Assembly: GCF_000711725.1 (NCBI RefSeq)
Contig: NZ_JONP01000010.1
Location: 124,001 to 188,000, forward strand
DNA: 64,000 bases
DNA from: Roseomonas aerilata DSM 19363
GTDB taxonomy: Bacteria > Pseudomonadota > Alphaproteobacteria > Acetobacterales > Acetobacteraceae
Direction of reading: 5' to 3'
Below are positions 18,609 through 58,164 of this stretch, piece by piece (the stretch's first letter is position 1; the number at the start of each line of letters is the position of its first letter). Under the pieces are notes generated by a model. That model worked only from the letters and a program-made list of their open reading frames with translations. It was not told the DNA's origin and did not search any database. The position numbers and the translations under genes are program-made.

Positions 18609-18920
18609 GTGTCGGCCAGCGGACCTCAGGATCAGGGGCGGGTTACCGGCACGACTTGCGTTACCTGCAGCGCGGTGCCGGGCGGCACCTTTGGCGCCAG
18701 CTTCTTTCTCAGCGACAGGCGGAGCTTCTTCACCATCATCGATGAGAATTTCTCCTCCATCACGCTGAACACGGCGATGGATGCCATTGCGGACGGCCGC
18801 CAGATCTGCGCGGGCGGAAACACCCCGCCGACTTTCGCGCCGAAGCCAGCTTCCTTTGCCCTGTTCGGCCTCGGCCTGCCGGGCATGGGTCTGGTGCAGC
18901 GGCATCGCAGCAGCAACTGA
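18609..18920 (+). pseudogene. C-terminal remnant of a PEP-CTERM-sorted exported protein
   Basis: The last 24 residues, PKPASFALFGLGLPGMGLVQ then RHR, reproduce the PEP-CTERM sorting tail: a PEP-like triplet, a hydrophobic span and an Arg-rich end. The second residue is Lys instead of Glu (PKP, not PEP). Upstream, TTCVTCSAVPGGTFGASFFL and ENFSSITLNTAMDAIADGRQ look like part of an extracellular beta-rich domain, but no signal peptide precedes it. It is either a truncated gene or one whose 5' end has decayed. PEP-CTERM proteins are processed by exosortase, which is not in this window. Confidence 0.55.
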
Positions 18921-19150
18921 TCCGCTCCCCTCCGGCGGGTCAGTTCTCCGGGGGCAGCTCTCGAAAGAGGGCCGTCCCAACTGTTTTTATCTCTCTTGCC
19001 CCCTGCCCTGCCCGCTTGGGCGGGGCGCGGTGTTCAGGGCCCTTGCACCCTAACGCATGGGCACCCTAGGATAGTTGCGCGCGCAACTTTTGTCGGGTTC
19101 TTCGGCGGCGATGCCCAGGCTCCCGCCGGTGAACCAGGAGTTCGGACAGC

Positions 19151-20776
19151 GTGAGCATGAACGAGCGGCCGCAGATCCTGCCCGTCCTTATCGTCGGCGG
19201 TGGCCCGGTGGGGCTGACGCTCGCCGCGCTGCTCGGGGAGCAGGGTGTGGCGGCGACGGTGAGCGAGGCTGACGAGGGCTACTGCACCGGCAGTCGCGCG
19301 ATCTGCATCTCGCGCCGCTCGCTGGAGATCCTGGGCTGGGCGGGCATCGACCGACCGGTGGTGGAGAAGGGCCTCGGTTGGACCTCGGGGCGCAGCTTCT
19401 ACCGGACGAAGGAGGTGCTGCACTTCCGCATGCCCTCCGGACCGGACGATCGCTTCGCGCCCATGGTCAACATCCAGCAGTATTACGTGGAACGGTACGC
19501 GCACGAGGCCGCGCTGCGGGGCGGCGCGACCGTGCACTGGTCCACGCGCGTGGTCGGGCTGCGCCAGCACGATGACCATGTGGAGGTGGAGTTGCAGCCG
19601 GCGGAGGGCGAGCCCTTCGTCCTGCGCGCATGCTGGGTGGTCGCCTGCGACGGTGGCCGCAGCACGACTCGCGACCTGCTCGGCGTGAAGCTGGAAGGCG
19701 TGCAGTACGAGGGCCGCTATGTGATCGTCGATATCGAGCAGGAGACGAGCCGGCCGGTGGAGCGGCTTGCCTGGTTCGATCCTCCCTCCAACCCCGGTTC
19801 GACCATCCTGATGCACCGCCAGCCCGACAATGTCTGGCGCATCGACTACCAGTTGCGGGACGATGAGGATCCCGAGGAGGCGATCAGGCCTGAGAGGGTG
19901 CTGCCGCGGGTGAGGAGCCACCTGGAGATGATCGGCGAGACGGCGCCGTGGAAGCCGCTCTGGATTTCCATCTACAACGCGAAATGCCTCACCCTCGGCG
20001 ACTACCGGCAGGGGCGCGTGCTCTTCGCCGGGGATGCGGCGCATCTCGTGCCGATCTTCGGCGTGCGGGGGCTCAATTCCGGACTCGATGATGTCGGGAA
20101 TCTCGCCTGGAAGCTCGCGCGCGTGCTCGACGGGCGCGCCGGGGAGGCCTTGCTGCGCAGCTACACGGAGGAGCGGCTTCACGCCGCGCGCGAAAACATC
20201 GCCTATGGCGCGAAGAGCACCGAGTTCATGGCGCCACCGGACTTTGCCTTCCGCCTGATGCGCGACGCGGTGCTGCGCTTGTCGGTGGGGGACGAGACGG
20301 TGCGCTCCCTCATCAACCCTCGGCAGTCGGCACCGGTCGGCTATGTGAACTCCTCCCTGCGCGAGGTCGATGACGACGCCGGGCGACTGGGCCGATCCGC
20401 CCTGCCCGGCCTGCCGGCACCCGACGCACCGCTCGCCTCGGCCGAGGGATGGCAGCATCTGAGCGAGGCCTTCGGTCGGAACTTCGTGCTGCTGCGCTTC
20501 GCGGCCGATGCGCCCTTTGTGGGATCGCCGCGCTACAAAGGGCTGACGGAGCTGACGCTGCTGCCCGCCGGCAATGTACCGCGGCCCAGCTGCCCCGTTG
20601 ATGCCGAGGGGTTGGCGCGGGAGCGCTATGGCGCACCGGAGGGCGCGGCCTGGCTCATCCGGCCCGACGGCTACGTTCTCGCGCGCTGGGCCAACCCCGA
20701 CCCGTCGGTGCTGGCAGCGGTGCTGGACCGACACCTCGGCGCGCCGCTGCGCCTCACCGCCAGCGAAGCGGCCTGA
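19151..20776 (+). CDS. FAD-dependent aromatic hydroxylase (3-(3-hydroxyphenyl)propionate hydroxylase-like)
   Basis: 541 residues, full length for the family. VLIVGGGPVGLTLAALLGEQ binds the ADP of FAD. ACWVVACDGGRSTTRDLLG is the DG motif, and GRVLFAGDAAHLVPIFGVRG is the GD motif contacting ribityl and NAD(P)H. A thioredoxin-like C-terminal domain ends in AAWLIRPDGYVLARW. GTG 19151 is chosen for its AGGAG at 19136-19140; ATG 19157 is the alternative. It begins an operon with a DUF2783-like protein, an amidohydrolase/decarboxylase and a Bug binding protein, suggesting hydroxylation coupled to decarboxylation of a carboxylated ring. Confidence 0.92.
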   Translation: MSMNERPQILPVLIVGGGPVGLTLAALLGEQGVAATVSEADEGYCTGSRAICISRRSLEILGWAGIDRPVVEKGLGWTSGRSFYRTKEVLHFRMPSGPDDRFAPMVNIQQYYVERYAHEAALRGGATVHWSTRVVGLRQHDDHVEVELQPAEGEPFVLRACWVVACDGGRSTTRDLLGVKLEGVQYEGRYVIVDIEQETSRPVERLAWFDPPSNPGSTILMHRQPDNVWRIDYQLRDDEDPEEAIRPERVLPRVRSHLEMIGETAPWKPLWISIYNAKCLTLGDYRQGRVLFAGDAAHLVPIFGVRGLNSGLDDVGNLAWKLARVLDGRAGEALLRSYTEERLHAARENIAYGAKSTEFMAPPDFAFRLMRDAVLRLSVGDETVRSLINPRQSAPVGYVNSSLREVDDDAGRLGRSALPGLPAPDAPLASAEGWQHLSEAFGRNFVLLRFAADAPFVGSPRYKGLTELTLLPAGNVPRPSCPVDAEGLARERYGAPEGAAWLIRPDGYVLARWANPDPSVLAAVLDRHLGAPLRLTASEAA

Positions 20777-20787
20777 GGGTCGCCGAC

Positions 20788-20973
20788 GTGGAAGCCGAGG
20801 ATCTGGACCGCTCCTACACCGCGCTCTGCGAAGCTATGGGGCGCGTCGGCGAAGGGAAGGCGTCCTTGCTGCTCGCGATGGTCAGCCTTGCGCTCATCGC
20901 CCGGCAGGGTTCGGCGGACGATGTGCTGCCGATCATCGAGAGTGCCGCAACAAGCATCGGGGAAACGCCGTGA
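20788..20973 (+). CDS. small DUF2783-like protein
   Basis: 61 residues starting at GTG 20788, 11 bp after the hydroxylase. EDLDRSYTALCEAMGRVGEG then SLALIARQGSADDVLPIIES is an all-helical pattern like DUF2783. From family knowledge that domain recurs between FAD hydroxylases and amidohydrolases in alphaproteobacteria, the same order as here. Its stop overlaps the next start (GTGA at 20970-20973). The function is unknown; the fixed position suggests an accessory subunit. Confidence 0.62.
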   Translation: MEAEDLDRSYTALCEAMGRVGEGKASLLLAMVSLALIARQGSADDVLPIIESAATSIGETP

Positions 20974-21953
20974 CTGGTCCACGCATCGACGTTCATCACC
21001 ATATCCTGCCCGCGCACTATGTGGAGACCGTGGGGCCGGGCCCGATTGGTTCCCAGGGTTCCTCCGGCCGCGTGCCGGCCTGGAGCCTGGAGGGCGCGAT
21101 CGGGTTGATGGACGAGGCGGGCATCTCGACCGCCATCACCTCGGTCACGGCGCCGGGCGTCGCGACGCTGAGCGCGCGCGGCGCGGCCGCGCTTGCCCGC
21201 TGGTGCAATGACTACGCGGCGCGCATGGTGCGCGACCGGCCCTCCCGCTTCGGCATGTTCACCTGCCTGCCGATGCAGGCCATCGACACCGCCATCGCCG
21301 AGGCGGTGCGCGGCTTCGACGAGTTGGGGGCGGACGGCGTGTGCCTCCTGTCGAACTACGAGGGGCGCTACCTCGGCGAGGGGGTTTTCCGGCCGCTCTA
21401 CGAGGAGCTGGACCGGCGCGCGGCCGTGGTCTTCGTGCACCCGACATCGCCGGCGCAGCTCGTCAGCGCGGGTGGGCTCTCCGCCTCCACGCTCGAATTT
21501 CCATTCGACACGACGCGCGCCATCGCATCGCTGATCTTCTCCGGCGTCACGCGCGACTACCCGTCGATCCGCTGGATCCTCTCCCATGCCGGCGGGGCCA
21601 TGCCCTATCTGGCCGGGCGGGTGGAATGGCTGACGCGCAACAACCCGGCGCTGCGCGAGCGCATTCCCGAGGGCTTCGCGCAGGCAATGGCGCCGCTCTT
21701 TTTCGATTGCGCGCTCTCGGCCGATGCCGTGCATTTCGCGGCGCTGCGCGCGCTCGTTCCCGACAGCCAGATCCTGTTTGGGACCGACTATCCTTTCGGC
21801 CCGGCAGGGCAGATGGCCGGGACGGTGGAGGCTCTCGCGGAACTCGGACTGCCCGCGGAGACGCTCGATGCCATCGACGGGGGAAATGCGCTGCGGCTTT
21901 TCCCGCGGCTGGCCGCCCTGCTCTCCCCTGCCGCGGAGGTGCATCATGGTTAA
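20970..21953 (+). CDS. amidohydrolase-2 family decarboxylase (ACMSD/6-methylsalicylate decarboxylase type)
   Basis: 327 residues with GTG start coupled to the preceding gene. Metal ligands are visible: His9 and His11 in RIDVHHHILPAHY, the His in VVFVHPTSPAQL, the His in WILSHAGGAMPYLAG, and the Asp in ILFGTDYPFGP. This order is the ACMSD-like branch of the amidohydrolase superfamily, whose members mostly decarboxylate aromatic or muconate-type acids using Zn or Mn. In this operon it could decarboxylate the ring before or after hydroxylation (inference). Its end overlaps the Bug gene by 8 bp. Confidence 0.87.
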   Translation: MTGPRIDVHHHILPAHYVETVGPGPIGSQGSSGRVPAWSLEGAIGLMDEAGISTAITSVTAPGVATLSARGAAALARWCNDYAARMVRDRPSRFGMFTCLPMQAIDTAIAEAVRGFDELGADGVCLLSNYEGRYLGEGVFRPLYEELDRRAAVVFVHPTSPAQLVSAGGLSASTLEFPFDTTRAIASLIFSGVTRDYPSIRWILSHAGGAMPYLAGRVEWLTRNNPALRERIPEGFAQAMAPLFFDCALSADAVHFAALRALVPDSQILFGTDYPFGPAGQMAGTVEALAELGLPAETLDAIDGGNALRLFPRLAALLSPAAEVHHG

Positions 21954-22926
21954 CGCTGCCCAGCTCGGCCGGCGGGCGGCGCTCGGGCTGCTCGGGGGCG
22001 CGCTCCTGCGGCAGGGCGCCCGCGCGCAGGGTGCTTATCCCACGAGGCCGGTTCGGATCGTGGTGCCCTTCCCGCCCGGTGGCGGCAACGACATCGTGGC
22101 GCGGCTGATCGGCGAATATCTGGCGCCTCAGCTCGGGCAGCCGGTGGTGATCGACAACCGCTCCGGCGCGGGCGGGAATATCGGCACCGATCTTGTCGCC
22201 AAGTCGCCGGCGGACGGCTACACGCTGCTGCACGTCGCCAATACTGTCGTGATGAACCCCTATCTCTACCGACGCCTGCCCTTCGACGTGCAGAAGGACC
22301 TGGAGCCGGTGGCGCTGCTGGCCACGACGCCGATCCTACTGCTGGCCGGGCGCGATTCCGGCATCGGAAGCCTGGAGGCGTTGCTGCGGCGCGGACGGGA
22401 GCGGGGCAATCCGCTGACCTATGCGACGCCTGGGAACGGCACGCCGCACCACTTTGCGATGGAGCTGCTGAAGGCGCGCAGCGGGATGGAGCTGCTGCAC
22501 GTGCCCTATCGCGGCACCGGGCAGGCGATCACGGACGTGCTCGCGGGGCGCGTTCCCGTGCTCGTCGCGACGCCTTCCACGGTGATCGAGTTCGTGGCCA
22601 ACGGGCAACTGCTGCCGCTGGCCACGATGGAACCCGCGCGGTCGGACACGGCGCCGAATGTTCCGGCTGTTGCGGAATTCCTGCCGGGCTTCGAGGTGAC
22701 TATCTGGCACGGGCTGATGGGGCCGGCCGGCATGCCGGCCGAGGTGGTGGGAAGGCTCGACGGCGCGCTGAGAATGGCGCTCGAGGATCAGTCGTACAGG
22801 GCGCGGCTCGCTGCGGTGGGCTTCGCGCCGAGGCTGGAGCCGGCGGCGGCGATGTCCGCGCGCATTGCCGCCGACCTGCGGACCTGGGGCGACGTGGCGG
22901 CGAAGGCCGGCATCGTGGCCGAGTGA
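21946..22926 (+). CDS. Bug/TctC-family periplasmic solute-binding protein
   Basis: 326 residues. The start at 21946 sits behind GGAGGT inside the end of the amidohydrolase gene. The signal peptide QLGRRAALGLLGGALLRQGA has a twin-arginine pair. The family motifs are YPTRPVRIVVPFPPGGGNDI, PVVIDNRSGAGGNIG and the ligand loop YATPGNGTPHHFAMELL. It is the last gene of the hydroxylase operon and so probably binds that pathway's aromatic acid. Confidence 0.93.
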   Translation: MVNAAQLGRRAALGLLGGALLRQGARAQGAYPTRPVRIVVPFPPGGGNDIVARLIGEYLAPQLGQPVVIDNRSGAGGNIGTDLVAKSPADGYTLLHVANTVVMNPYLYRRLPFDVQKDLEPVALLATTPILLLAGRDSGIGSLEALLRRGRERGNPLTYATPGNGTPHHFAMELLKARSGMELLHVPYRGTGQAITDVLAGRVPVLVATPSTVIEFVANGQLLPLATMEPARSDTAPNVPAVAEFLPGFEVTIWHGLMGPAGMPAEVVGRLDGALRMALEDQSYRARLAAVGFAPRLEPAAAMSARIAADLRTWGDVAAKAGIVAE

Positions 22927-22936
22927 GCAGCCGCGT

Positions 22937-23410
22937 TCAGGAGGTCTCCGCCATGCCCGACCGTGCGAGCGCGTCGTCGATCACCCGGTCGAGCAGGCGG
23001 CCGAGCGACGCCCGCTCCTCCGCGCTGAGACCGCCGAAGATGATGCCGTTCTGGCGCTCGATCATGGCCATCGCCCTCGCCCAGCGCCTCTCGCCGTGAG
23101 GGGTCAGGGTGAGCACGACGCTCCGGGCATCCTCCGTGGAGATGCGCTTGAGCACGAGCGACTGCTCGACGAGCGACTGGGCCGCGCGGCTCGCCTGGGC
23201 CTTGTTGAGGTTCGCGCGCCGGGCGAGGTCCTGCACGGAAAGGGGCGCGAAGCTGCCGATCGCCGCGAGGCAGCGGCCCTCGCCGAGCGGCAGGCCGACC
23301 TCCGCGAGATAGGCCGCCTCGCTCTCGCGGTCGGTCAGCTTGTGGACGCGGTGGAGCCGATAGGTCAGCGCGGTTTCGAGCGAGAACTGCGTCTCGGACT
23401 TGCGGGGCAT
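22937..23410 (-). CDS. MarR-family transcriptional regulator
   Basis: 157 residues. The winged helix-turn-helix reads PLSVQDLARRANLNKAQASR, then LVLKRISTEDARSVVLTLTP, with the DxR wing signature. N- and C-terminal helices form the dimer interface. MarR proteins are usually repressors released by phenolic ligands. It sits tail to tail with the Bug gene and head to head with the ThDP-enzyme gene 146 bp away, which is its most likely target; control of the hydroxylase operon is also plausible. Confidence 0.92.
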   Translation of the reverse strand: MPRKSETQFSLETALTYRLHRVHKLTDRESEAAYLAEVGLPLGEGRCLAAIGSFAPLSVQDLARRANLNKAQASRAAQSLVEQSLVLKRISTEDARSVVLTLTPHGERRWARAMAMIERQNGIIFGGLSAEERASLGRLLDRVIDDALARSGMAETS

Positions 23411-23556: not shown

Positions 23557-25167
23557 ATGAAGGTCGCATCCGCCGTGGCCCTGGCCCTGATGGATCATGG
23601 GGTCCGTACCCTCTTCGGGGTTGCGGGGGATACGAATCTCCCGGTCATCGACAGCTTCTGCCGCGAGCATTCCGGCACCTATGTCGCCGCCGGGCACGAA
23701 GCGGGGGCGGTTCTCATGGCGCTCGGCTTCTCGGCCGTGAGCGGGGAGGTAGGGGTCGCGACCGTCACGCGCGGGCCGGGGCTCACCAATGCCTTTACGG
23801 CACTCACGGAAGGTGTGCGCGGCTCCACGCCGATGGTCCTCGTCTGCGGCGATTCGCCGTCTGGGGACGTGACGCATCCGCAGGAGATCGACCACCGCGA
23901 GGTCGCCGCGTGCAGCGGTGCGGGGTTTGTGGGGGTGCTCTCGCCGGCTTCGGCCCTCGGCGACGTGGCGCGCGCCTTTCGCCGCAGTATCGTCGAGCGA
24001 CGGCCCATCGTGCTGAACATCCCGAAGGACCTGCTCGGGCAGGAGGTGGCTTATGGCCGCAAGGTGCACCGGATCCCGGTGGACCGGGCGGTCGTGCCCG
24101 CCAGCCCGGACCTGGACGACGCGGTGGGCATCATCGCCGCCGCCAAGCGGCCGATCGTCCTGGCCGGGCACGGGGCGATCGGCGCCGAGGCGAAGGCGGC
24201 GCTCCTGCGGCTCGCGGCGCGCATGGACGCCTTCCTGGCGACGACGCTGCGGGCGAAGGATCTTTTCGCCGGCGAGCGCTTTGACATCGGCATCTTCGGC
24301 AGCCTGAGCACGGATGCCGCCGTGGAGGTCATCATCGAGAGCGATTGCGTGGTCGCCTTCGGCGCCTCGCTGAATCGCTTCACCACCGGCCACGGCAAGC
24401 TGCTCTCGGGCAAGCGGGTGGTGCAGGTGGATCTCTCGCCGGCCGCGATCGACCGGCACCTCTCGCCGGGCGTGGCCGTAGTGGGGGATGCCGCACTGAC
24501 GGCGGACGCGATCCTGCACTGGCTCGACGAGGCGGAAGTTTCGCCTTCGGGGTTCAGGAGCGGGGCGCGCGTGGCGGAGGAGCGGCCCCAACCAGCGCAG
24601 CCCGGCGGGGCGGAGGGCACAGTCCATATCACGACGGCGCTGAAGCGGCTGGACGCCGCGCTTCCGGCGGACCGGATCCTCGTCACCGATGGGGGGCGGT
24701 TCATGGCCGAGGCCTGGAAGCACATGCATGTTCCCGGCCCCGCCGCCTTCGTGAAGACAACGCATTTCGGCGCGGTCGGCATGGGCATGCCCTATGCGAT
24801 TGGGGCCGCGGCGGCGAAGCGGGATAGGCCGGTAATCCTCGTGGCGGGCGACGGAGGCTTCATGCTGGGCGGGCTGTCCGAGTTCAACTCGGCGGTACGG
24901 GACCGCTCCAACATCATCGTGGTCCTCTGCAATGACGGGAGCTACGGCGCCGAATACGTCCAGCTCGCGGACCAGGGGATCGATCCGGGAATCATGACCT
25001 TCCGCTGGCCGGAGTTCGCGGGGGTGGCGCAGGCGCTGGGCGGCATGGGCTTCACCGTGCGGTCCGAAGCGGAACTCGAAGGGGTGATCGCGCGGCTTCC
25101 CGGGCTCCAGGGGCCCGTACTGATCGATATCAAGATCGATCCGGACAGGGTTCCGCCGCTGCACTGA
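23557..25167 (+). CDS. thiamine-diphosphate-dependent enzyme, acetolactate synthase/benzoylformate decarboxylase superfamily
   Basis: 536 residues from ATG 23557, behind AGAGGGAGAAGAG. The pyrimidine-binding domain carries the activating Glu48 (AAGHEAGAVLMALG). A central domain follows, and the PP domain carries GDGGFMLGGLSEFN ending in NDGSYGAEYVQL (GDG at about residue 431), which binds Mg-ThDP. It is catabolic-like in length and lacks an associated small ilvN subunit, so it is probably a 2-oxoacid decarboxylase or carboligase and not the biosynthetic enzyme. It diverges from the marR gene. Confidence 0.88.
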   Translation: MKVASAVALALMDHGVRTLFGVAGDTNLPVIDSFCREHSGTYVAAGHEAGAVLMALGFSAVSGEVGVATVTRGPGLTNAFTALTEGVRGSTPMVLVCGDSPSGDVTHPQEIDHREVAACSGAGFVGVLSPASALGDVARAFRRSIVERRPIVLNIPKDLLGQEVAYGRKVHRIPVDRAVVPASPDLDDAVGIIAAAKRPIVLAGHGAIGAEAKAALLRLAARMDAFLATTLRAKDLFAGERFDIGIFGSLSTDAAVEVIIESDCVVAFGASLNRFTTGHGKLLSGKRVVQVDLSPAAIDRHLSPGVAVVGDAALTADAILHWLDEAEVSPSGFRSGARVAEERPQPAQPGGAEGTVHITTALKRLDAALPADRILVTDGGRFMAEAWKHMHVPGPAAFVKTTHFGAVGMGMPYAIGAAAAKRDRPVILVAGDGGFMLGGLSEFNSAVRDRSNIIVVLCNDGSYGAEYVQLADQGIDPGIMTFRWPEFAGVAQALGGMGFTVRSEAELEGVIARLPGLQGPVLIDIKIDPDRVPPLH

Positions 25168-30506: not shown

Positions 30507-31517
30507 ATGTGCAGCAACAGCCCTGCGGTGCGCCCGCTGTCCCGTCGTCTGGTCCTCGGTGCCGGGATGGGCGCCGGGCTCAGCTCCGGCCTCGCCCTGC
30601 CCGCTGGCGCGCAGGCGCCATGGCCGAGCCGCCCGATCACGCTGGTGGTGGGCTTCCCGCCTGGCGGCCAGACCGATTTCGCGGCCCGCATGGTGCAGCC
30701 GGGCCTCGGCACCGCCCTGGGCCAGACCGTGGTGATTGAGAACCGCGGCGGCGCCGGCGGCAATCTCGGTACGGAGGCGGTGATGCGCGCCCGGCCGGAC
30801 GGCTACACGCTGCTCGCGGGCAATTCGAGCCCGATGGCCATCAATCCTCACACCTTCCCGAACATGACCATCAACCCGCTTGACATGGTCCCGATCGGGC
30901 TGTCGCTGCAGAGTTCCATGGTGCTCTGCGTGCATCCCTCCGTGCCTGCCACGAACGTCGAGGAATTCGCCGCCTGGGTGAAGGCTCAGCGCAATGGCGT
31001 GAACTACGGCACCCCGGCCGCCGGCAGCCTCTCCCACTGCGCGATGGAGCTGTTCCGCAGCCGCATCGGCAGCCCCGCGATGGAGAGCGTACCCTATCGC
31101 GGCAGCGGCCCCGCCATCCAGGACTTCATTGCCAACCGCTTCAGCGCAATGTTCGACGGCGCCTCCGTCGTGGCGCCCTTCGTCAAGGCGGGGCAGCTGC
31201 GCGCCATCCTCGTCACCGGCGCGAACCGCTCCCCCGCCTTCCCGGATGTAGCGACCTCCGCCGAGCAGGGGCTGAACGACTTCACCTTCACGGCCTGGAT
31301 CGGCCTTTTCGCACCGCGTGGCACGCCGGACGACGTTATCCGCAAGATTTACGCCGCACAGAGCACCGCCCTTCAGGACGCGACGCTGCGCGAGCGGATC
31401 ACCAGCCAGGGCGACGAGCCCGGCAGCGGCACCACCGAGGAATTCGCCGCCATGGTTCGCCGCGACCACGCCCTTTGGGGCGAGGTGGTACGCGCGAACA
31501 ACATCACTGCGAGCTGA
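30507..31517 (+). CDS. Bug/TctC-family periplasmic solute-binding protein
   Basis: 336 residues. The signal peptide contains SRRLVLGAGMGAGLSSGLAL. Family motifs: WPSRPITLVVGFPPGGQTDF, TVVIENRGGAGGNLG, YGTPAAGSLSHCAMELF and SVPYRGSGPAIQDF. Codon use in the second half is slightly less GC-extreme than its neighbours. It lies between an IS3 remnant and mannonate dehydratase; a sugar-acid ligand is conceivable from that context but untested. Confidence 0.92.
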   Translation: MCSNSPAVRPLSRRLVLGAGMGAGLSSGLALPAGAQAPWPSRPITLVVGFPPGGQTDFAARMVQPGLGTALGQTVVIENRGGAGGNLGTEAVMRARPDGYTLLAGNSSPMAINPHTFPNMTINPLDMVPIGLSLQSSMVLCVHPSVPATNVEEFAAWVKAQRNGVNYGTPAAGSLSHCAMELFRSRIGSPAMESVPYRGSGPAIQDFIANRFSAMFDGASVVAPFVKAGQLRAILVTGANRSPAFPDVATSAEQGLNDFTFTAWIGLFAPRGTPDDVIRKIYAAQSTALQDATLRERITSQGDEPGSGTTEEFAAMVRRDHALWGEVVRANNITAS

Positions 31518-47339: not shown

Positions 47340-48311
47340 ATGACCTACTGCCTGCGCCGTCGCATGGCTCTTGGCCTGATCGCGGCACCCGCCCTCGCCC
47401 GGGCCGCGCGCGCTGCCGGGTGGGTGCCGGACCGCCCTGTCAGGATCATTGTTCCCTTCCCGCCCGGCGGCGGGCTTGATCTGGTCGGCCGCGTGCTGGC
47501 CGACACGATGGCCTCGGAACTCGGCCAACCCGTCGTGGTGGACAACAGGGCTGGCGCCGCCGGCGCGCTCGGCATTGAGCAGGTATATCAGGCGGCGCCA
47601 GACGGCTACACGCTCGGCATCACCAGCTCGGGCAACATCACCATCGGCCCGCTCCTGCGCCGGACGCCCTATCAGCCGATGGCGCTCACCCATGTGTCGC
47701 GCCTCACGACCAGTCCGTTGATGCTCGTTGCGCGCAAGGGCTCGCCGGTGGCGGATCTGGATGCCTTTCTCGCCTGGATGCGCGCAAAGCCCGAGGAGGT
47801 ACGCTTCGCCTCCGCCGGTATCGGCTCCAGCACCCATCTGTCGCTCGAGCTGCTGAACATCCGTCTCGGCACGAGGACGATGAATGTGCCCTATCGAGGC
47901 ACCACGCCGATGCTGACCGACCTTGCCGCCGGCATCGTCGATGTGGCCTTCGCCGACGCGACGGGCTGGCCATTGGTCGAGCAAGGCGCACTCCGCCTGC
48001 TGGCTGTGTCCTCCGGTGAGGCTTGGGCGCGCAGCCCCCAGACGCCGACCCTCGACAGCCGGCTGGGCGAGTTCCGCGTGACCAACTGGTACGGGCTGGT
48101 TGCCCCGCCGAATCTTCCCGCACCGATCCTGGCGAGGTTCGAGGCAGAGGTGGCGCAGGCCCTCGCGCTGCCCAAGGTGCAGCAGGCTTATGCAACCTCC
48201 GGCTTCACGGCCTTGCCACTACCACGAGCGCAGTTCCACCCGTTCCTGGAAAGCGAGATCAAGCTCTGGGACAGCGTGATCGAGACGGCGAAGATCGAGA
48301 AGGAAAGTTAG
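47340..48311 (+). CDS. Bug/TctC-family periplasmic solute-binding protein
   Basis: 323 residues, started behind CAGGAG. Signal peptide CLRRRMALGLIAAPALARAA. Family motifs: VPDRPVRIIVPFPPGGGLDL, PVVVDNRAGAAGALG, RFASAGIGSSTHLSLELLN and NVPYRGTTPMLTDLAAG. It is the second gene of an operon with the LLM monooxygenase, so its ligand is probably that enzyme's substrate (inference). Its 3' end overlaps the edge of the broken FAD monooxygenase by 4 bp. Confidence 0.93.
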   Translation: MTYCLRRRMALGLIAAPALARAARAAGWVPDRPVRIIVPFPPGGGLDLVGRVLADTMASELGQPVVVDNRAGAAGALGIEQVYQAAPDGYTLGITSSGNITIGPLLRRTPYQPMALTHVSRLTTSPLMLVARKGSPVADLDAFLAWMRAKPEEVRFASAGIGSSTHLSLELLNIRLGTRTMNVPYRGTTPMLTDLAAGIVDVAFADATGWPLVEQGALRLLAVSSGEAWARSPQTPTLDSRLGEFRVTNWYGLVAPPNLPAPILARFEAEVAQALALPKVQQAYATSGFTALPLPRAQFHPFLESEIKLWDSVIETAKIEKES

Positions 48312-48856: not shown

Positions 48857-51800
48857 TCAGAACCGGTAGGCCGCGCGGGCGAGACCGGCGTGGGAGTTGT
48901 AGCCGTCACCGACCGCGGCGCTGTACTGCACGCGCAGGTCCCAGTTGGACGTGGTGAGCAGCTCCGCACCAAGGGTGAACTTGCCCAGCACGTCCGGGAT
49001 GGGCGTGCTAGCCCGGAAGCCTCGGCTTGCCGGCTGGCTGGCGAGGCGGGCCGTTGCCGCCCAATCCCCGTTCGCGCCCAGCTCGACACCGACGCTGGCG
49101 AAGGGGCGGAGCACCGTCGCCTCGCCCAGCCGGACACGCCCACCCACCTCCACGGCAGGCACCGCGGTGAAGGTCGTGGCACCCTGGGAAGCAACGGCGA
49201 GGTTGAAGGGCGCGGCCCCGCTCTCCGTGTAGCCGCCGCTGCGGACGTGGTTCAGGTGCAGGTCCACCCGCGGCTGCACATACCAGCCCGCCGCCTCGCC
49301 CCCGAAGGGCACCTGGTAGGCCAGCCGCGCGTGGGCGCCGACATGCCAGGCATCCGGCTTGGCCCTCGCGGTGCCCTGGAAGCTGCCGGCGGTGACGGAA
49401 CGCTGGCTCTCGTACCAGCCGTATCCGGCATCGACGGCGCCCGAGACCTGCCACGGGCCCGCCTGGTAGCGTAGCAGGGCGCCGAGCAGCGCGCTGTCGC
49501 CGCTGACCTTGGAGGAGCCCGCATCGCCCCGGAACACGCTGCTCTGGTAGGCGATGGAGCCGCCGACGAACCAGCCCGGCGCGATCTGCACCTGCCCGCC
49601 GGTCTGCATCGTCCAGGACGTCGCCTTGTAGCCGAGCGCGCCGCCGGTGCTGTCCTGGGTCGCCGTGCTGCCGAAGGCGCGCGCCCAGCCGCAGCTCGCC
49701 TCGTCCTGGCTGATGCCGGCGCCCTCGAAGGTGGCGCAGTCGTTCAGCATGTTGGTGCTGAAGTCGCGGCTGCTGGCGAAGCGGGAGGCCGAGATCGCCC
49801 CCACCGTCTGCCCGGACAGGCTGTTCAGCGCCTGCCCGTAGCCAGCGCCGTCGCGCACCCCGGCAAGCGCCGTGAAACCGGCGTTCAGGTTGGCGCCGCC
49901 GTTCCACAGCTCCTGCAGGTGAGCGGCAACGGCCCGCTGGTTGGCGCCGAGCCCGGCAGCCTGGCCCGTGAACTCGGCCCGGGGCTGGACCAGCAGGCTG
50001 TTGCCGGCCTGCCGGGCGTCGAAGGCGAAGAGATGCGTCCGGGTCGAGGTCAGGGAAGGATCGGGCGTCACGCCCTCGGTCGCGGTCAGCACCGTAACTG
50101 CGCGGTTGGCCAGCGCCGCCGGGTGCAGCTCCAGCATGCCGCCCAAGCGGACGCTGCCCTGAACATCGATCCGGTCCGAGGCGCCCGTGCCGTGGTTCGT
50201 GTCCAGAACCAAGCGGCCGGTCGGACCCTGAACCAGGTTGCCGCTCATTGCCGTGGCGGCGATCGCGCCGGTGCCGCCGACGTTCACGGTCCCGTTGTTG
50301 GTCAGTGTCCCCGCGCCGTAGTTGTTGACTGGCCCCTGGTTGATCGTCGCACCGGCGTCGTTGAGGACGTTGCCGCCACCGCCGCCGTTGCCGAGGCTGA
50401 TGCTGCCGGTGATCGTGCCGCCGGACTGGTTGTGGATATTGGTCCAGCCCCCGGTGCTGTACACCGCCGTGCCCCCCGCCCCGGTCTTGCCCAGCGAGGT
50501 GATGGTTCCTCCGTTGGTGATCTGGTTCGAGGTCGTGGTGTCCACCGGGGCCTGGGCGCTCGGCCCGCCGACGACGTAGATGCCCGCGCCGTACCCGTCG
50601 TTGGCGCTGAAGTTGGTCCCGCCCTGGACAGTCCCCCCGGTGAGGACGTTGACGGCGATGGCAGAGCCGCCGGTCAGGTTGCCTGGACGTCCGGAGCCCG
50701 GAGCCGGCGCGACGGGTTGCCCCACACTCTCGGCGAAGATGCCGGGCGAGGCCGCGCCGCCCGCCAGCACCTGGCCGCTGACGTTGACGGCCACGGTGCC
50801 GCCGGCGCCGGTCCCGCCCGCCCAGCCGTCATTGGCGCCGAAGCCGCTGGTGGTGACACGCCCGCCCCCGCCACCGATGCTCTGGGCCAGGATCACCGGC
50901 GTGTTGCCCGCCGCCGTCGAGAGCGTGGCGCCCGGGTTCACCATGACGGAGACCGGCCCGCCGTTGCCGTCGTGGTTGGACGTGGGCGTGAAGCCCGCGC
51001 GCTGCGCCGTCAGCCCGGTGTCGCCGGCCAGACCGCCGCCGCCGCCGATGCTCTGCGCCAGCACGGCGACGCCGCCGGTGCCGGTGGTGGTGATGCTGGC
51101 CGGCGGCGGCGTCGGCACCTGGGCTGTCGGGGCGGTGCCCACCGTCACAGAGACCGAATTGGCGTTGCCGGTCATCATGCCTGTGCCGAAGGGATTGGCG
51201 CTGTTGTTCGGCGTGCCGCCGAGCACCAGACCGCCGCCGCCGCCGATGCTCTGCACCAGGATGCCGTAGGCGTTCCGCCCCATCGTCGCGATGCTGCCGG
51301 TGCTGGTGACGGAGACCGCGCCGGCGGTGCCGCCATCCCTGGCATTGCCGCTGGCGCCACCGATGGTGAGATTGATCCCGTAGCTGCCGCCGGTGGCCAC
51401 CGCCTTGCCGCCGTTGTTGTCCTCGTTGTCGGAGGACCGGGTCCGCACCATCCCGCCGCCACCCTGGATGCTCTGCGCCAGGATGCCGATCGCGTCGTGG
51501 CTGCGCGTCTCGATGCTGCCGCTGTTGGTGACGGTGACCGTTCCCGCCGTGCCGCCGCCGCCGCCATTGGCGCCGATGGAGATCGGCACGCTGAGGACCG
51601 AGTTGTCGCTGTTGTCCTCTGGCTTCACCTTGGCGGCAGAGGTTCCGGCGATGCCGCCGCCCCCCGCGATGCTCTGCGCCACGATGCCGAGCGACTGGCC
51701 GCCGATGGTGGTGATGCCGCCGTAGTTGTTCACCGTGACGTTGGCGCCGTTGCCGCCGCCGCCGCCATTGCCGCCGACACCGATCGCGCCCTGCACGTCG

Positions 51801-54800
51801 CCGCTGGTGGTCGAGGAGAGGGCCGCGCCGCCATTGCCGCCGCCACCGCCGATGGCCTGCGCGAGGATGCCGTCCGACATGGGGCCGACCGTGCCGATGC
51901 GGCCGTAATTGTCCACGGCCACGTTGCCGGCCGCCCCGCCGCTGCCGCCCCGGCCGCCGACGCCGACATTGACGGTAATGGAGGTCGCGTCGCTGCTGTC
52001 GTCGCTCTCGCCGGTGTTGCCGCCGAGGTTCTCCAGCGCGTCGCCGTCATCGGCCGCGTCACCGAGGCGGGGTGCCGAGGCCGGCGCGCCGGTCACGAGG
52101 CTGGTCGCCAGCGCGGCGAGCGCCTGGACCGAGTTGTACTGGTTGAGGCTGGAGCTGCCGCCGCTGGCCATGGCGGCGGCGATCCGAGCATAGGCGCTGT
52201 CCAGTGTCGCCGCAGTGCCCGTGCCGCCGTCGGTGGAGGAGGTCTGGTGGCCGATGGTGCTGGCCGCCTTGCCGCCCTGGCCGCCGCCACCAGCAATGCT
52301 CTGCGCCACGACACCGGGCGCCGAGGCGCCGAAGGTGACGATGGCGCTGCCCTGCTTCGTGGTCACGTGAACAGAGTCGCTGTTCAGCCCGGTCCAGGTG
52401 GAGCCACCAGTCCCGCTGTTGGCACCGACGTTCAGCGTGGCGCTGTAGGTGCCGCTGGACGTGCCCGCCGCGCCGCCGCCGCGGCCACCACCGCCGCCCA
52501 CCGCCTGGGCCATGATGCCCACTGCGCCGTCGCCCAGCGTCAGGATGGCACCGTTGTTGGTGGCGACCACCTGGCGGCCGTCGCCGCCGCCCTGCCCCTG
52601 GCCGCCCATGTTGAGGGTGACGCTCACATTGGACGCGTCGTCGCCGGTCGCCTTGCCCTGGCCATCCCCGGTGCCGCCCGCGCCGCCGCCGCCGCCGATG
52701 CTCTGCGCCAGCACGCCGTCCGCGGACTCGCCGCTGGTGATGATCAGCCCGTTGTTGCCGACCGTCACGGTATTGCCGGAACCGCCGCCGCCGCCGCTGC
52801 CGCCGAAGCTGACCGTTCCCGTGAGGTTGAAGGTGCTGCTGCCCTGGGCACTGGCATGGGCAGAGGAGTCGCCGCCCGCACCGCCGCCGCCGCCGATGCT
52901 CTGCGCCACCAGCGCGGCCGCTCCGGACCCGCGGGTTGCGAGCAGGCCGCTGTTGTCCAACGTGACGGGGCCGCCTGCGCCACCGGCCCCGCCGCTTCCG
53001 GCAAGGCTGACACTGAGCGCGACCGTAGGAATTTCGCCGTTGTCAGGAACGGAATATGCCGTGGCCTTGGAGGCGGCGGCGCCGCCGAGGCCGCCACCCG
53101 CGCCGATGCTCTGCGCCACGATGCCGAAGCTGTCATGGCCGGCCGTGACAATCGCTCCGCTGTTGGTGGTGCTCGCACCCGGCGCGAAGCCGATGGAACC
53201 GCCATCGCCGCCGCCGCTGCCCGTACCGCCGAGCGCGACGGAGGCGCTGCCGGCGACGCCCGTGCTGCGGCTGTAGGCAGAGCCACCTGAGCCGCCACCG
53301 CCGCCGATGCTCTGGAGCAGCATGCCAGGGGAGTGGGCACCCTGCGTGCTTACGGTTCCGGCGCTGGTCGCCTGGATGGCGCCGCCGTTCCCGCCCCCTG
53401 CTCCCTGGCCACCGACCACCAGGTTCAGGAAGGCGCCCGAGCCCGAGGCGTCGCCGCCCGACCCGCCCCCGCCGCCGACGCTCTGCGCCGCCATGCCCGA
53501 GGAGAGCTCGGCCGTGGTGCGGATCGTGCCACCATAGTTCAGGATGATGTTGCCGCCGTTGCCGCCGATCGCGCCGGCCCCGCCGACCGCGAGCCAGCCG
53601 CGGTCATTGCCACCGGAGCCACCGCCGCCGCCGATGCTCTGCGCGAGGATGCCCGGCGAATTCGTGCTGCCGGTGCTGATCGACCCGCGCCCGGAGACGC
53701 TGATGGCGCTGCCGTTGCCACCGGAGGCACCTTCGCCGCCGGTAGCACCCCAGCCGCCGCCGGTGCCGCCGTTCTGGCCAGTGCCGCCGAAGGATTGCGC
53801 CAGAATGCCCGGCGCGTGATCAGCACTCTCCGTCGTCAAAGAACCGTCGTTGACGATGGTGATCATGCCGCCATTCCCGCCGCGGCCAGAGTTGCCACCC
53901 GACGCCCAGCCGCTTTCATCAGCGCCGAGCCCGCCGATCCCGCCGAAGGATTGGACCCAGATGGCCGGGGTGAAGTACCTGCCGAGCTGGACGTTCACGC
54001 TGCTCTGATTGGTGACCGTGACATTGAGGGCCCCGCCGTCTCCCGCAGCACCGCCATCGCCGCCGCTGCCGCCGTCCGTCTTGCTGGAGCCGGTCCCGCC
54101 GTTCCCGCCATTGCCGCCGGCGCTGACGATCCGTACGCCGGCACCGGGCGAGACGGATGACGGGCCAACGGTCGGAGGGCTATTGGCGAAGAACTGAGTG
54201 TACGCGGTGATCGAGGTACCGAGATTGACGGTGACTGTGCCGCCGGAGCCGGGCAACGCGCTGTTATTCGCATCGGTCGTCGCGCCGTCGACGCCCTGCT
54301 TGGCATAGTCGGTCACATGCGGGTGGCCGCTGCCGCCGTTCCCCGCGATCGACTGGGCCAGGATGCCTGTCTGGATGGATTGGATCGCGCCGACCTGGCC
54401 GGAATTGGTTTCCGCCTGGTTCGGATTGGCATAGGCATTGATCGTGATGTCGCCACCATTGGCGCCGGGCTGGGATACGCCGGGCAGGCCGCCCTGGGTG
54501 GGAACGCCGCCGCCGCCGCCATTGCCGCCGCCGGAGTAGACCTGGACAGCCGGGGCATCGGCCGCCGGATTGCCGTACTGGTCGATGCCGCTGATGACCT
54601 GGACGTTGGAGCCCTGCGGCATGGTCACGGTGATGCTGCCCGCCGCCCCGGCAGCACCGCCGCTGCCGGCGCTCAGGTTCGGCACCGGAGCGACGGCGTT
54701 GTTGCTGGCATCGGTTCCGTCGCTGCCGCTGCCGGCTTGCGTCGCCAGCGCCACGCCCGGCGTACTTCCAGCGGCGTAGTAGAGACCGCCGGTGCCGGGG

Positions 54801-55105
54801 ACCTGGCTGAGGTCGATGTCGATAGACGTCCCGGCTGTGCCAGGATTGCCGTTGCGGCCCGGCTTGTCGAAGTCGGGGGTGGTGGGCGCTGGACCGTTGG
54901 GCGCCGTGTTGGAGAAGGAGCAGCCGCCGTAGGAGATGTCCCCGCAGGTCGTCTGCGTCTGCGCGTGGGCGGGCTGCCCACCCAGGACCAGCGCGAGCGC
55001 GGCCACGGCGGAGCAAGAGGAGAGGAGCCGCACGCGGTTCGAGACCGGCGGTGACCCACGGAATGTGGGTTGGGGCGAGCGGTGAGCGAGCGGCGCGGCG
55101 GTCAT
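48857..55105 (-). CDS. large autotransporter (type Va) with glycine-rich repeat passenger
   Basis: 2082 residues. The extended signal peptide ends near AHAQTQ (SCSAVAALALVLGGQPAHA). The passenger (about 50-1750) is built of some 15-18 degenerate repeats of about 60-110 residues. Each combines a strand run such as GTVTVTNSGSIETRSHDAIG with LAQSIGGGGG-like loops, expected to form a beta-helix or beta-roll. The last ~290 residues are the beta-barrel (SCGWARAFGSTATQDSTGGA, GGQVQIAPGWFVGGSIAYQS) ending in AAYRF, the C-terminal Phe needed for BAM insertion. It likely acts in surface adhesion or aggregation. It lies downstream of, and in line with, a winged-helix/TPR regulator. Confidence 0.95.
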   Translation of the reverse strand: MTAAPLAHRSPQPTFRGSPPVSNRVRLLSSCSAVAALALVLGGQPAHAQTQTTCGDISYGGCSFSNTAPNGPAPTTPDFDKPGRNGNPGTAGTSIDIDLSQVPGTGGLYYAAGSTPGVALATQAGSGSDGTDASNNAVAPVPNLSAGSGGAAGAAGSITVTMPQGSNVQVISGIDQYGNPAADAPAVQVYSGGGNGGGGGVPTQGGLPGVSQPGANGGDITINAYANPNQAETNSGQVGAIQSIQTGILAQSIAGNGGSGHPHVTDYAKQGVDGATTDANNSALPGSGGTVTVNLGTSITAYTQFFANSPPTVGPSSVSPGAGVRIVSAGGNGGNGGTGSSKTDGGSGGDGGAAGDGGALNVTVTNQSSVNVQLGRYFTPAIWVQSFGGIGGLGADESGWASGGNSGRGGNGGMITIVNDGSLTTESADHAPGILAQSFGGTGQNGGTGGGWGATGGEGASGGNGSAISVSGRGSISTGSTNSPGILAQSIGGGGGSGGNDRGWLAVGGAGAIGGNGGNIILNYGGTIRTTAELSSGMAAQSVGGGGGSGGDASGSGAFLNLVVGGQGAGGGNGGAIQATSAGTVSTQGAHSPGMLLQSIGGGGGSGGSAYSRSTGVAGSASVALGGTGSGGGDGGSIGFAPGASTTNSGAIVTAGHDSFGIVAQSIGAGGGLGGAAASKATAYSVPDNGEIPTVALSVSLAGSGGAGGAGGPVTLDNSGLLATRGSGAAALVAQSIGGGGGAGGDSSAHASAQGSSTFNLTGTVSFGGSGGGGGSGNTVTVGNNGLIITSGESADGVLAQSIGGGGGAGGTGDGQGKATGDDASNVSVTLNMGGQGQGGGDGRQVVATNNGAILTLGDGAVGIMAQAVGGGGGRGGGAAGTSSGTYSATLNVGANSGTGGSTWTGLNSDSVHVTTKQGSAIVTFGASAPGVVAQSIAGGGGQGGKAASTIGHQTSSTDGGTGTAATLDSAYARIAAAMASGGSSSLNQYNSVQALAALATSLVTGAPASAPRLGDAADDGDALENLGGNTGESDDSSDATSITVNVGVGGRGGSGGAAGNVAVDNYGRIGTVGPMSDGILAQAIGGGGGNGGAALSSTTSGDVQGAIGVGGNGGGGGNGANVTVNNYGGITTIGGQSLGIVAQSIAGGGGIAGTSAAKVKPEDNSDNSVLSVPISIGANGGGGGTAGTVTVTNSGSIETRSHDAIGILAQSIQGGGGMVRTRSSDNEDNNGGKAVATGGSYGINLTIGGASGNARDGGTAGAVSVTSTGSIATMGRNAYGILVQSIGGGGGLVLGGTPNNSANPFGTGMMTGNANSVSVTVGTAPTAQVPTPPPASITTTGTGGVAVLAQSIGGGGGLAGDTGLTAQRAGFTPTSNHDGNGGPVSVMVNPGATLSTAAGNTPVILAQSIGGGGGRVTTSGFGANDGWAGGTGAGGTVAVNVSGQVLAGGAASPGIFAESVGQPVAPAPGSGRPGNLTGGSAIAVNVLTGGTVQGGTNFSANDGYGAGIYVVGGPSAQAPVDTTTSNQITNGGTITSLGKTGAGGTAVYSTGGWTNIHNQSGGTITGSISLGNGGGGGNVLNDAGATINQGPVNNYGAGTLTNNGTVNVGGTGAIAATAMSGNLVQGPTGRLVLDTNHGTGASDRIDVQGSVRLGGMLELHPAALANRAVTVLTATEGVTPDPSLTSTRTHLFAFDARQAGNSLLVQPRAEFTGQAAGLGANQRAVAAHLQELWNGGANLNAGFTALAGVRDGAGYGQALNSLSGQTVGAISASRFASSRDFSTNMLNDCATFEGAGISQDEASCGWARAFGSTATQDSTGGALGYKATSWTMQTGGQVQIAPGWFVGGSIAYQSSVFRGDAGSSKVSGDSALLGALLRYQAGPWQVSGAVDAGYGWYESQRSVTAGSFQGTARAKPDAWHVGAHARLAYQVPFGGEAAGWYVQPRVDLHLNHVRSGGYTESGAAPFNLAVASQGATTFTAVPAVEVGGRVRLGEATVLRPFASVGVELGANGDWAATARLASQPASRGFRASTPIPDVLGKFTLGAELLTTSNWDLRVQYSAAVGDGYNSHAGLARAAYRF

Positions 55106-57183: not shown

Positions 57184-58164
57184 TCAGATACCTAGAGTGG
57201 CGACGAGCGTTGCGTACCGCTCCTGCTCCTGACGCATAAAAGTCCGGAGCGCCGCCGGAGAACCACCCGCCGGTTCGGCGCCCAGCAGTGCCAGACGCTC
57301 ACGCGTCTCCAAGGTCGCGAGGGTCGTGCGTGCGGCCTCGTTCAGTTCCTCGACAGCACCGGGCGGCGTCCCGGCGGGCGCGAGCAGGCAGCCCCAGGAC
57401 GTACCGCCGTAGCCGGGGAACCCGCCTTCCACGACGGTGGGCAGGTCTGGCAGCAGGAGGGTGCGCTCCGGCGAGGCCACGGCGATGGCACGCAGCATCC
57501 CAGCCAGGACGTGGGGCCGGACAGCCGCATAGGCGTCGAACATCATGGAGGTCCGGCCCATCAGCAGGTCGGCATGGGCTGCCGTGGAGCCGCGATAGGA
57601 AACGTGCTCCATCTCGACCCCAGCTCGGCGCAGCAAATCCGCGGCGAAAAGGTGTGGGTTCGACCCGATCCCGGACGAGGCATAGGCGGCGCGGCCATCT
57701 TGCCCTCGGGCCCAGGCAAGAAAACTGGGCAGTTGCTGGGCGGAGTGCGAGGAGGGAACCACCATGACGATCTGCACCGTCGTCGTCAGGATCACCGGCA
57801 CGAAGTCTTGCAAGGGATCAAAGGGAAGCGCTGGAAACAGCGCGGCATTGACGACGTGCGACGAGGCGACGAGGGCCAGGGTGTGCCCATCAGGCCTGGA
57901 CCTTGCGACGACCTCCGTGCCGATGATGCCCGACGCCCCTGGCCGGTTCTCGACCAGGACGGGCTGGCCGAGCTGGGTGTGTAGCCCTCCCGCGATCAGC
58001 CGCGCCGTGGCGTCGGAGGCCCCGCCCGCTGTGTACGGCACCACGATCCGGATAGGACGTTCCGGCTTCCAGGCGGCTTGTCCCCGTGCGGCCCGCGTGA
58101 TTGCGGGCGCGGCCAGGAGGGTGGAAGCGGCCAGGAGGGCGCGGCGGGCCACGGGCTGCGGCAT
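57184..58164 (-). CDS. Bug/TctC-family periplasmic solute-binding protein
   Basis: 326 residues. Signal peptide PVARRALLAASTLLAAPAIT. Family motifs: WKPERPIRIVVPYTAGGASD, PVLVENRPGASGIIG, AYASSGIGSNPHLFAADLL and HVSYRGSTAAHADLLMG. An enolase-superfamily fragment lies 18 bp upstream in the same direction, so the two formed an operon before the IS5 insertion; a sugar-acid or lactone ligand is plausible from that. Confidence 0.93.
   Translation of the reverse strand: MPQPVARRALLAASTLLAAPAITRAARGQAAWKPERPIRIVVPYTAGGASDATARLIAGGLHTQLGQPVLVENRPGASGIIGTEVVARSRPDGHTLALVASSHVVNAALFPALPFDPLQDFVPVILTTTVQIVMVVPSSHSAQQLPSFLAWARGQDGRAAYASSGIGSNPHLFAADLLRRAGVEMEHVSYRGSTAAHADLLMGRTSMMFDAYAAVRPHVLAGMLRAIAVASPERTLLLPDLPTVVEGGFPGYGGTSWGCLLAPAGTPPGAVEELNEAARTTLATLETRERLALLGAEPAGGSPAALRTFMRQEQERYATLVATLGI

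Follow-up and report, generated by a model that had tools for sequence, protein, structure and literature searches.

In a 64-kb stretch of Roseomonas aerilata DSM 19363 DNA (the window; contig C10 of a 6.43-Mb genome), four closely spaced genes encode an aromatic-type flavin adenine dinucleotide (FAD) hydroxylase, a 61-residue protein, an Amidohydro_2 enzyme and a Bug-type receptor, and form a probable catabolic operon for an aromatic acid beside a MarR gene (Table 1). Judged by its sequence, the locus appears to be a variant of the known MhaAB hydroxylase class, in which the coupling subunit has diverged and lineage-specific genes have been added. We consider it fairly likely that a group A flavoprotein works here with a small helical coupling subunit of the MhaAB kind, under MarR control, to make a product of homogentisate type. 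An earlier note on this DNA had proposed a catabolic operon with such a hydroxylase, an ACMSD-superfamily amidohydrolase and a Bug receptor, together with a small protein linked to the hydroxylase, and that much stands. Its single conserved four-gene pathway does not, as the amidohydrolase is found near the hydroxylase in just one of 80 related loci.

These 80 loci come from a scan of one genome per species, which turned up hydroxylase relatives in 127 stretches; from these, the 80 best, with 58–96% identity to the window hydroxylase and mostly from Burkholderiales by title, were kept (clade A). A gene for 57–80 residues follows the hydroxylase gene in every one of them (78 found by script, L088 and L097 by tblastn), and of the 78 script-found genes 69 overlap the hydroxylase gene and 9 lie after it. 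MarR is encoded near the hydroxylase in 66/80 loci and Bug in 12/80 (11 within 900 bp 3′ of the pair, plus L046); the single locus with the amidohydrolase is also L046. This locus, from Roseomonas sp. KE2513, is the nearest named relative of the window locus, and the six proteins from the hydroxylase to the thiamine diphosphate (ThDP)-dependent enzyme are 93–100% identical between the two. In Pararoseomonas indoligenes (L047), a convergent MarR gene directly follows the small gene, with no amidohydrolase or Bug gene between. From these neighbour counts and the L047 layout, the conserved core is the hydroxylase and the small protein, usually with MarR and sometimes with Bug. The amidohydrolase seems to be either a gain of the Roseomonas line or a loss in L047.

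The small open reading frame (ORF) is a real gene, because its nonsynonymous divergence from KE2513 is far below its synonymous divergence (dN 0.007 vs. dS 0.19) and because a homologue follows the hydroxylase in all 80 loci. Purifying selection acts on all four genes (dN/dS against KE2513 ~0.11 for the hydroxylase, ~0.04 for the small gene, ~0.16 for the amidohydrolase and ~0.10 for Bug), and the three larger ones are confirmed by Pfam. The earlier note described an 11-bp overlap between the hydroxylase and small genes; the first ATG, GTG or TTG of the small gene is the GTG at 20788, so the two are instead separated by an 11-bp gap (20777–20787). The GTGA overlap (20970–20973) and the 8-bp overlap (21946–21953) farther along are as it described, and the spacing suggests that the four genes are co-transcribed. 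A terminator-like site was found only at 18674, which is upstream of the operon; shuffled sequences average 2.1 such sites.

The strongest sign that the small protein belongs to the enzyme comes from natural fusions. Among 20 fetched loci of non-clade-A hydroxylases from the family of the window genome, which was taken as Acetobacteraceae, six (L141, L142, L144, L146, L147 and L155; five genomes, three genera) encode the hydroxylase and the small domain as one protein. The fused hydroxylases are 596–630 residues long and carry the small domain at the C-terminus (profile E-values of 2e-13 to 1e-18 over 21 proteins), and no separate small gene was recognised after the hydroxylase in these six loci. 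The fused proteins form one branch in the tree, with L148 beside that branch. When one fused domain was searched against 249 genomes of the same family, it matched 19 places in 18 genomes: the six fusions (query included), 12 stand-alone ORFs directly 3′ of a hydroxylase, and one place in G186. Since some related bacteria make the hydroxylase and the small protein as one fused chain, the latter most probably serves a group A flavin hydroxylase as a coupling subunit.

By itself the small protein is nearly invisible to standard searches. It has no Pfam match at E ≤ 1, and so falls below the curated cut-off of DUF2783 (25 bits), and no NCBIfam match; BLAST against the DUF2783 of the same genome gave no meaningful match, and PDB sequences and folds yielded nothing of use. 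Searched alone against the 249 same-family genomes, it found its own copy and five weak matches (E 6e-4 to 0.01), four of which (G015, G069, G106 and G213) lie directly 3′ of a hydroxylase; the fifth, G239, contains stops. We therefore turned to profile alignment with hhalign of clade A small proteins (79), same-family intermediates (11) and DUF2783 (19), after dropping L146 (a fusion with a spurious ORF) and L254 and moving L159 and L160 into the DUF2783 set. Clade A aligned with the intermediates at 96.8% probability (E 2.7e-10; score 54.7, against a maximum of 14.9 in 50 column shuffles) and the intermediates with DUF2783 at 94.7% (E 6.2e-8). The direct alignment of clade A with DUF2783 reached 40.5% (score 26.2; maximum 13.7 in 50 column shuffles, 10.0 for a reversed profile). 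Shuffle statistics refer to local alignments, one global-mode shuffle having given an artefactual score of 124 over one column. Two intermediates also match Pfam DUF2783, at 18.5 and 21.8 bits, short of the 25-bit cut-off. Thus, the label 'DUF2783-like' given earlier holds at the level of this profile chain, through which the small protein appears homologous to DUF2783, but not by Pfam or BLAST. The genome's own two DUF2783 genes each lie directly 3′ of a hydroxylase 43% identical to that of the window. In passing, L245 has a second, weaker DUF2783 match ~2.2 kb downstream, and the small ORF called in L254 resembles two partial repeats of the motif.

The larger protein has the features of a group A flavoprotein. 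Pfam assigns FAD_binding_3 (E 1.1e-63) and Rng_hyd_C (4.8e-7), and NCBIfam assigns NF006002 (649 bits; cut-off 416). The GxGxxG, DG and GD motifs, which mark group A and of which DG serves both FAD and NAD(P)H, are present and invariant across 24 aligned rows. In AlphaFold models, the hydroxylase was predicted with lower confidence (predicted local distance difference test score, pLDDT, 77) than the small protein, which forms three helices (residues 3–20, 22–38 and 43–57; pLDDT 93.5). The best PDB matches of the hydroxylase model are flavoprotein monooxygenases such as RslO9, PieE and 2-hydroxybiphenyl 3-monooxygenase (template modelling score ~0.5–0.6), while the fold search with the small protein model gave one meaningless match (E 6.8) and none at Z ≥ 2. 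The genome has 20 hydroxylase-like matches; for the best three, in the window and on contigs C12 and C23, and for no others, the DUF2783 profile or the search with the small protein revealed a partner.

This arrangement closely resembles MhaAB, the 3-hydroxyphenylacetate 6-hydroxylase of Pseudomonas putida U (proposed also in Paraburkholderia xenovorans LB400), for which the available passages describe a ~550-residue FAD hydroxylase followed by a 60-residue coupling protein (PMC3053370, PMC10983741). In the part of PMC3053370 that we draw on, MhaA has 566 residues, MhaB (60 residues) is called a coupling protein, the LB400 mhaAB pair lies beside hmgA1, and LB400 MhaA had earlier been annotated as an MhpA-type hydroxylase. 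The window pair, a large group A flavoprotein with a ~60-residue partner directly downstream, is of the same kind, so the role of the small protein is not entirely unknown, as had been supposed; such pairs also stand beside hmgA in relatives. The likeness to the P. putida U enzyme is one of description, as the homology link was run only to DUF2783. In contrast to MhaAB, the window pair belongs to a separate clade, its small protein lies below Pfam detection as DUF2783, and the locus has a MarR gene with a candidate operator, an added amidohydrolase and Bug, and no hmgA. With Pfam DUF2783 (PF10932), the window protein shares its length, a near-gapless profile alignment and its place after the same kind of flavoprotein, but it gives no match to that family even at E 1. 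Another operon likened by description, bll2330-bll2329-bsl2328 of Bradyrhizobium diazoefficiens (VOC protein, FAD oxidoreductase, DUF2783), also joins an FAD oxidoreductase to DUF2783, but has another partner gene and is listed under the NnrR regulon in the accessible portion of PMC6710368. A paper on homogentisate in JMP134 does not mention mhaA or mhaB.

The MarR gene is tied to the core by a candidate operator. The sequence GTTGCGCGCGCAAC upstream of the hydroxylase gene is the only GTTG-N6-CAAC site in the window, and the same motif occurs within 250 bp upstream of the hydroxylase in 63/66 loci with MarR; the remaining three have paired one-mismatch versions. It occurs in none of 9 loci without MarR; a further five loci, truncated at contig ends and likewise lacking the motif, were left out of the count. 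The association has a Fisher value of 1.8e-9 (background 10 sites in 1.21 Mb), although Fisher values here are too small because related loci share descent and are not independent. Two copies lie ~28 bp apart in many loci, and both the motif near the hydroxylase and a MarR homologue are absent in 20/20 same-family loci of non-clade-A hydroxylases. The related pattern GTTGC-N4-GCAAC is not enriched genome-wide (4 sites vs. 3 for a reversed control), so the site by itself proves nothing; the weight of this evidence is its placement and its co-occurrence with MarR. The operon is probably controlled by the adjoining MarR, for which this site is the candidate operator.

In the mechanism that we favor, MarR would sit on GTTG-N6-CAAC upstream of the hydroxylase gene until it binds an aromatic acid, whereupon the operon would be made. 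Bug would capture the acid in the periplasm, and the flavoprotein would reduce its own FAD and hydroxylate the ring. The 61-residue subunit would dock at the C-terminal side of the flavoprotein and couple NAD(P)H oxidation to hydroxylation. The product would most likely be a homogentisate-type para-hydroquinone, whose cleavage would fall to enzymes encoded at another site in the genome (there is a homogentisate cluster on contig C12), and the amidohydrolase would supply a lineage-specific extra step before or after hydroxylation.

The link to homogentisate comes from relatives. In clade A, HmgA is encoded 3′ of the hydroxylase in 5/80 loci (L065, L071, L078, L093 and L099). All five of these genomes were included when 27 clade A genomes were chosen from the 80 loci and searched for a sister-clade hydroxylase; each of the 20 second places at E ≤ 1e-100 was retrieved, and three at 34–35% identity were left out. 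DUF2783 genes come after the hydroxylases of this sister clade and were found in 18/20 of these places, and HmgA was adjoining or close in 8/20 (counting L250, where it lies at the edge, 5.6 kb from the hydroxylase). Two loci of the intermediate clade (L143 and L150) also have HmgA within ~6 kb. The window genome's own cluster (L126, C12:160000–176000) encodes a hydroxylase 41% identical to that of the window, DUF2783, a metallo-beta-lactamase-fold protein (Pfam), HmgA, FahA, Bug, a MaiA-like protein and a divergent MarR-like protein, some of them named by sequence only, and is likely MhaAB plus hmg. We favor hydroxyphenylacetate conversion to homogentisate as the founding chemistry of these enzymes, although with modest confidence for the window, because no hmg genes are found there and the genome has a separate MhaAB-like pair. 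On contig C23, the genome has a third set of hydroxylase, DUF2783 and metallo-beta-lactamase-fold protein, lying between two Bug receptors (L127, C23:33000–49000) near what is, from sequence, a likely Rieske oxygenase system.

Several observations weigh against the proposed mechanism and its homogentisate-type product. HmgA and FahA have no match in the 64-kb window, though homogentisate genes at the locus are not strictly defining. The five HmgA-linked loci of clade A form one subclade in the tree, so the link arose once in clade A and may not apply to the window. An MhaAB-like pair is already present in the homogentisate cluster of this genome, so the window pair may act on something else; the window Bug shares 38% identity with the one in that cluster, and its ligand may therefore differ. 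In L237 and L244 a sister-clade hydroxylase directly precedes HmgA, and in L158, also a sister-clade row, HmgA is next door, all three with no small gene recognised; the partner is thus not always adjacent, and the genomes of L237 and L244 hold another hydroxylase copy with DUF2783. Finally, three of the nine loci without MarR (L085, L100 and L120) have a single one-mismatch version of the operator motif.

It is possible, if not the reading we would choose, that the clade A pair works as proposed on a substrate unrelated to homogentisate and that the HmgA linkage is a later recruitment. Besides the single subclade and the genome's own second pair, 75/80 loci lack HmgA within 6 kb of the hydroxylase end (some contigs being cut), and a sister-clade hydroxylase is also carried by 17/22 clade A genomes without HmgA linkage. 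By contrast, none of the five HmgA-linked genomes has a sister-clade hydroxylase at E ≤ 1e-70 (one 34% match, in G365), and clade A looks like it is replacing that enzyme there (Fisher 0.003, a value inflated by shared descent; three of the five are metagenome-assembled genomes). A further point against this reading is that hydroxylases of two other clades, again with small partners, are found near HmgA.

The earlier note had instead expected salicylates or resorcylates, with Bug taking up a carboxylated phenol, the amidohydrolase decarboxylating it and the flavoprotein hydroxylating the resulting phenol. No such linkage was seen, the neighbourhood evidence pointing to homogentisate, and we regard this pathway as unlikely. 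The amidohydrolase does belong to a superfamily that includes such decarboxylases (PF04909), and its overlapping gene order is the same in KE2513. It has the Amidohydro_2 domain with a D-x-H-x-H N-terminus and HP, SHAGG and GTDYP motifs, and retains the metal-site residues H9, H11, H157, H206 and D273. Against the PDB, its family profile scored 203 bits with 2f6k, 140 with ACMSD, 130 with LigW and 107 with gamma-resorcylate decarboxylase; the likeness is at superfamily level, and 2f6k, the closest relative of solved structure, carries just the title metal-dependent hydrolase. The N-terminus aligns with human ACMSD (RIDVHHHILP vs. KIDIHSHILP), whereas the LigW and resorcylate decarboxylase matches begin only at about profile position 42; those two enzymes have Glu in place of the first His. 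Among 398 genomes of the phylum, only the window's own copy was found at E ≤ 1e-75. Relatives at 45–49% identity (L191–L195 and L255) sit in other operons, with LigA/LigB-like genes instead (LigB and LigA confirmed by Pfam in L195 and in Bosea L255, the neighbours in L191–L194 assigned by sequence only), and L196 lies elsewhere; decarboxylation is therefore a guess. In L191–L195, position 9 is Gln. Neighbourhoods of amidohydrolase relatives on plasmids are mixed. Separately, the related amidohydrolases of L191–L195 and L255, with their LigB- and LigA-like ring-cleavage neighbours, point to a probable meta-cleavage operon. The receptor scores 212 bits with Bug27 and, judged by eye, has an export signal; it is one of five Bug-type receptors in the 64 kb, the others being at 1914–2900, 30567–31517, 47340–48311 and 57184–58164.

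We think it highly improbable that the small protein acts as a second component resembling a flavin reductase, since 61 residues are too few for one. Group D enzymes consist of an oxygenase and a separate flavin reductase, whereas here the large protein itself has FAD_binding_3 and the three motifs and matches monooxygenases of the FAD_binding_3 type, and the small one is modeled as three helices with no PDB match of note. The idea derives from reviews, in which Table 1 of PMC10816480 has MhaB (6 kDa) in the reductase column and Table 1 of PMC6165268 puts the MhaAB enzyme under group D, both read from the tables as excerpted. We give practically no credence to a chance ORF or translational spacer, which would explain the non-ATG start and the lack of Pfam and NCBIfam matches but is already contradicted by the homologues in all 80 loci, the low dN/dS and the fused forms.

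Taken further, DUF2783 and its hidden relatives might be one coupling-subunit family, sometimes a C-terminal domain, for a subfamily of the group A flavin hydroxylases, which are usually treated as single-component, and clade A might be a distinct enzyme, possibly a 4-hydroxyphenylacetate 1-hydroxylase. We hold this only tentatively and think it doubtful. For that route to homogentisate, the matching open-licence literature, as far as its excerpts go, names no gene. Judged against open-licence literature, three things here seem to be new: the hidden link between the families, the natural fusions and the operator. They would give a family of 'unknown function' a concrete role as a subunit or domain of a flavin hydroxylase, and the fusions offer the complex as a single chain for expression and structure work. 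The operator is a ready reporter for finding the inducer, and hence the substrate. The domain content of the relatives contradicts the reductase and group D listings in the excerpted review tables, provided that MhaA of P. putida U belongs to this kind too.

Table 1. Features of the operon and its surroundings, in window coordinates.
Feature	Position	Strand	Details
Candidate MarR operator GTTGCGCGCGCAAC	19074-19087	n/a	63 bp 5′ of hydroxylase start codon
FAD aromatic hydroxylase, group A type, clade A	19151-20776	+	541 aa; FAD_binding_3, Rng_hyd_C
Small putative coupling subunit, divergent DUF2783/MhaB-like	20788-20973	+	61 aa, 6.3 kDa, GTG start
Amidohydro_2/ACMSD-superfamily enzyme, apparent lineage-specific addition	20970-21953	+	327 aa; Amidohydro_2 3.4e-35
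Bug/TctC periplasmic solute receptor	21946-22926	+	326 aa; TctC 3.1e-63
MarR-family regulator, convergent	22937-23410	-	MarR_2 1.5e-10
ThDP-dependent enzyme, adjoining, not a conserved part	23557-25167	+	TPP_enzyme N/M/C

The MarR and ThDP genes adjoin the operon, as had been reported. We rejected the ThDP enzyme as part of the pathway, because a homologue lies within 6 kb of the hydroxylase in just 4/80 loci and the window has no second operator. Upstream of the operon, a short ORF at 18675–18920 has a C-terminus that by eye resembles a PEP-CTERM-type sorting tail and is possibly a gene remnant. At 2–2900 on the minus strand, genes for an FAD_binding_3 monooxygenase, a SnoaL_4 protein and a Bug receptor lie in a row as a second small catabolic operon, with no DUF2783-like gene called among them. 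On the same strand, 48622–48780 matches 53 residues of a hydroxylase N-terminus at 49% identity, perhaps the remnant of a lost copy, and 48857–55006 is an ORF of 2049 residues with no Pfam match at E 1e-5.

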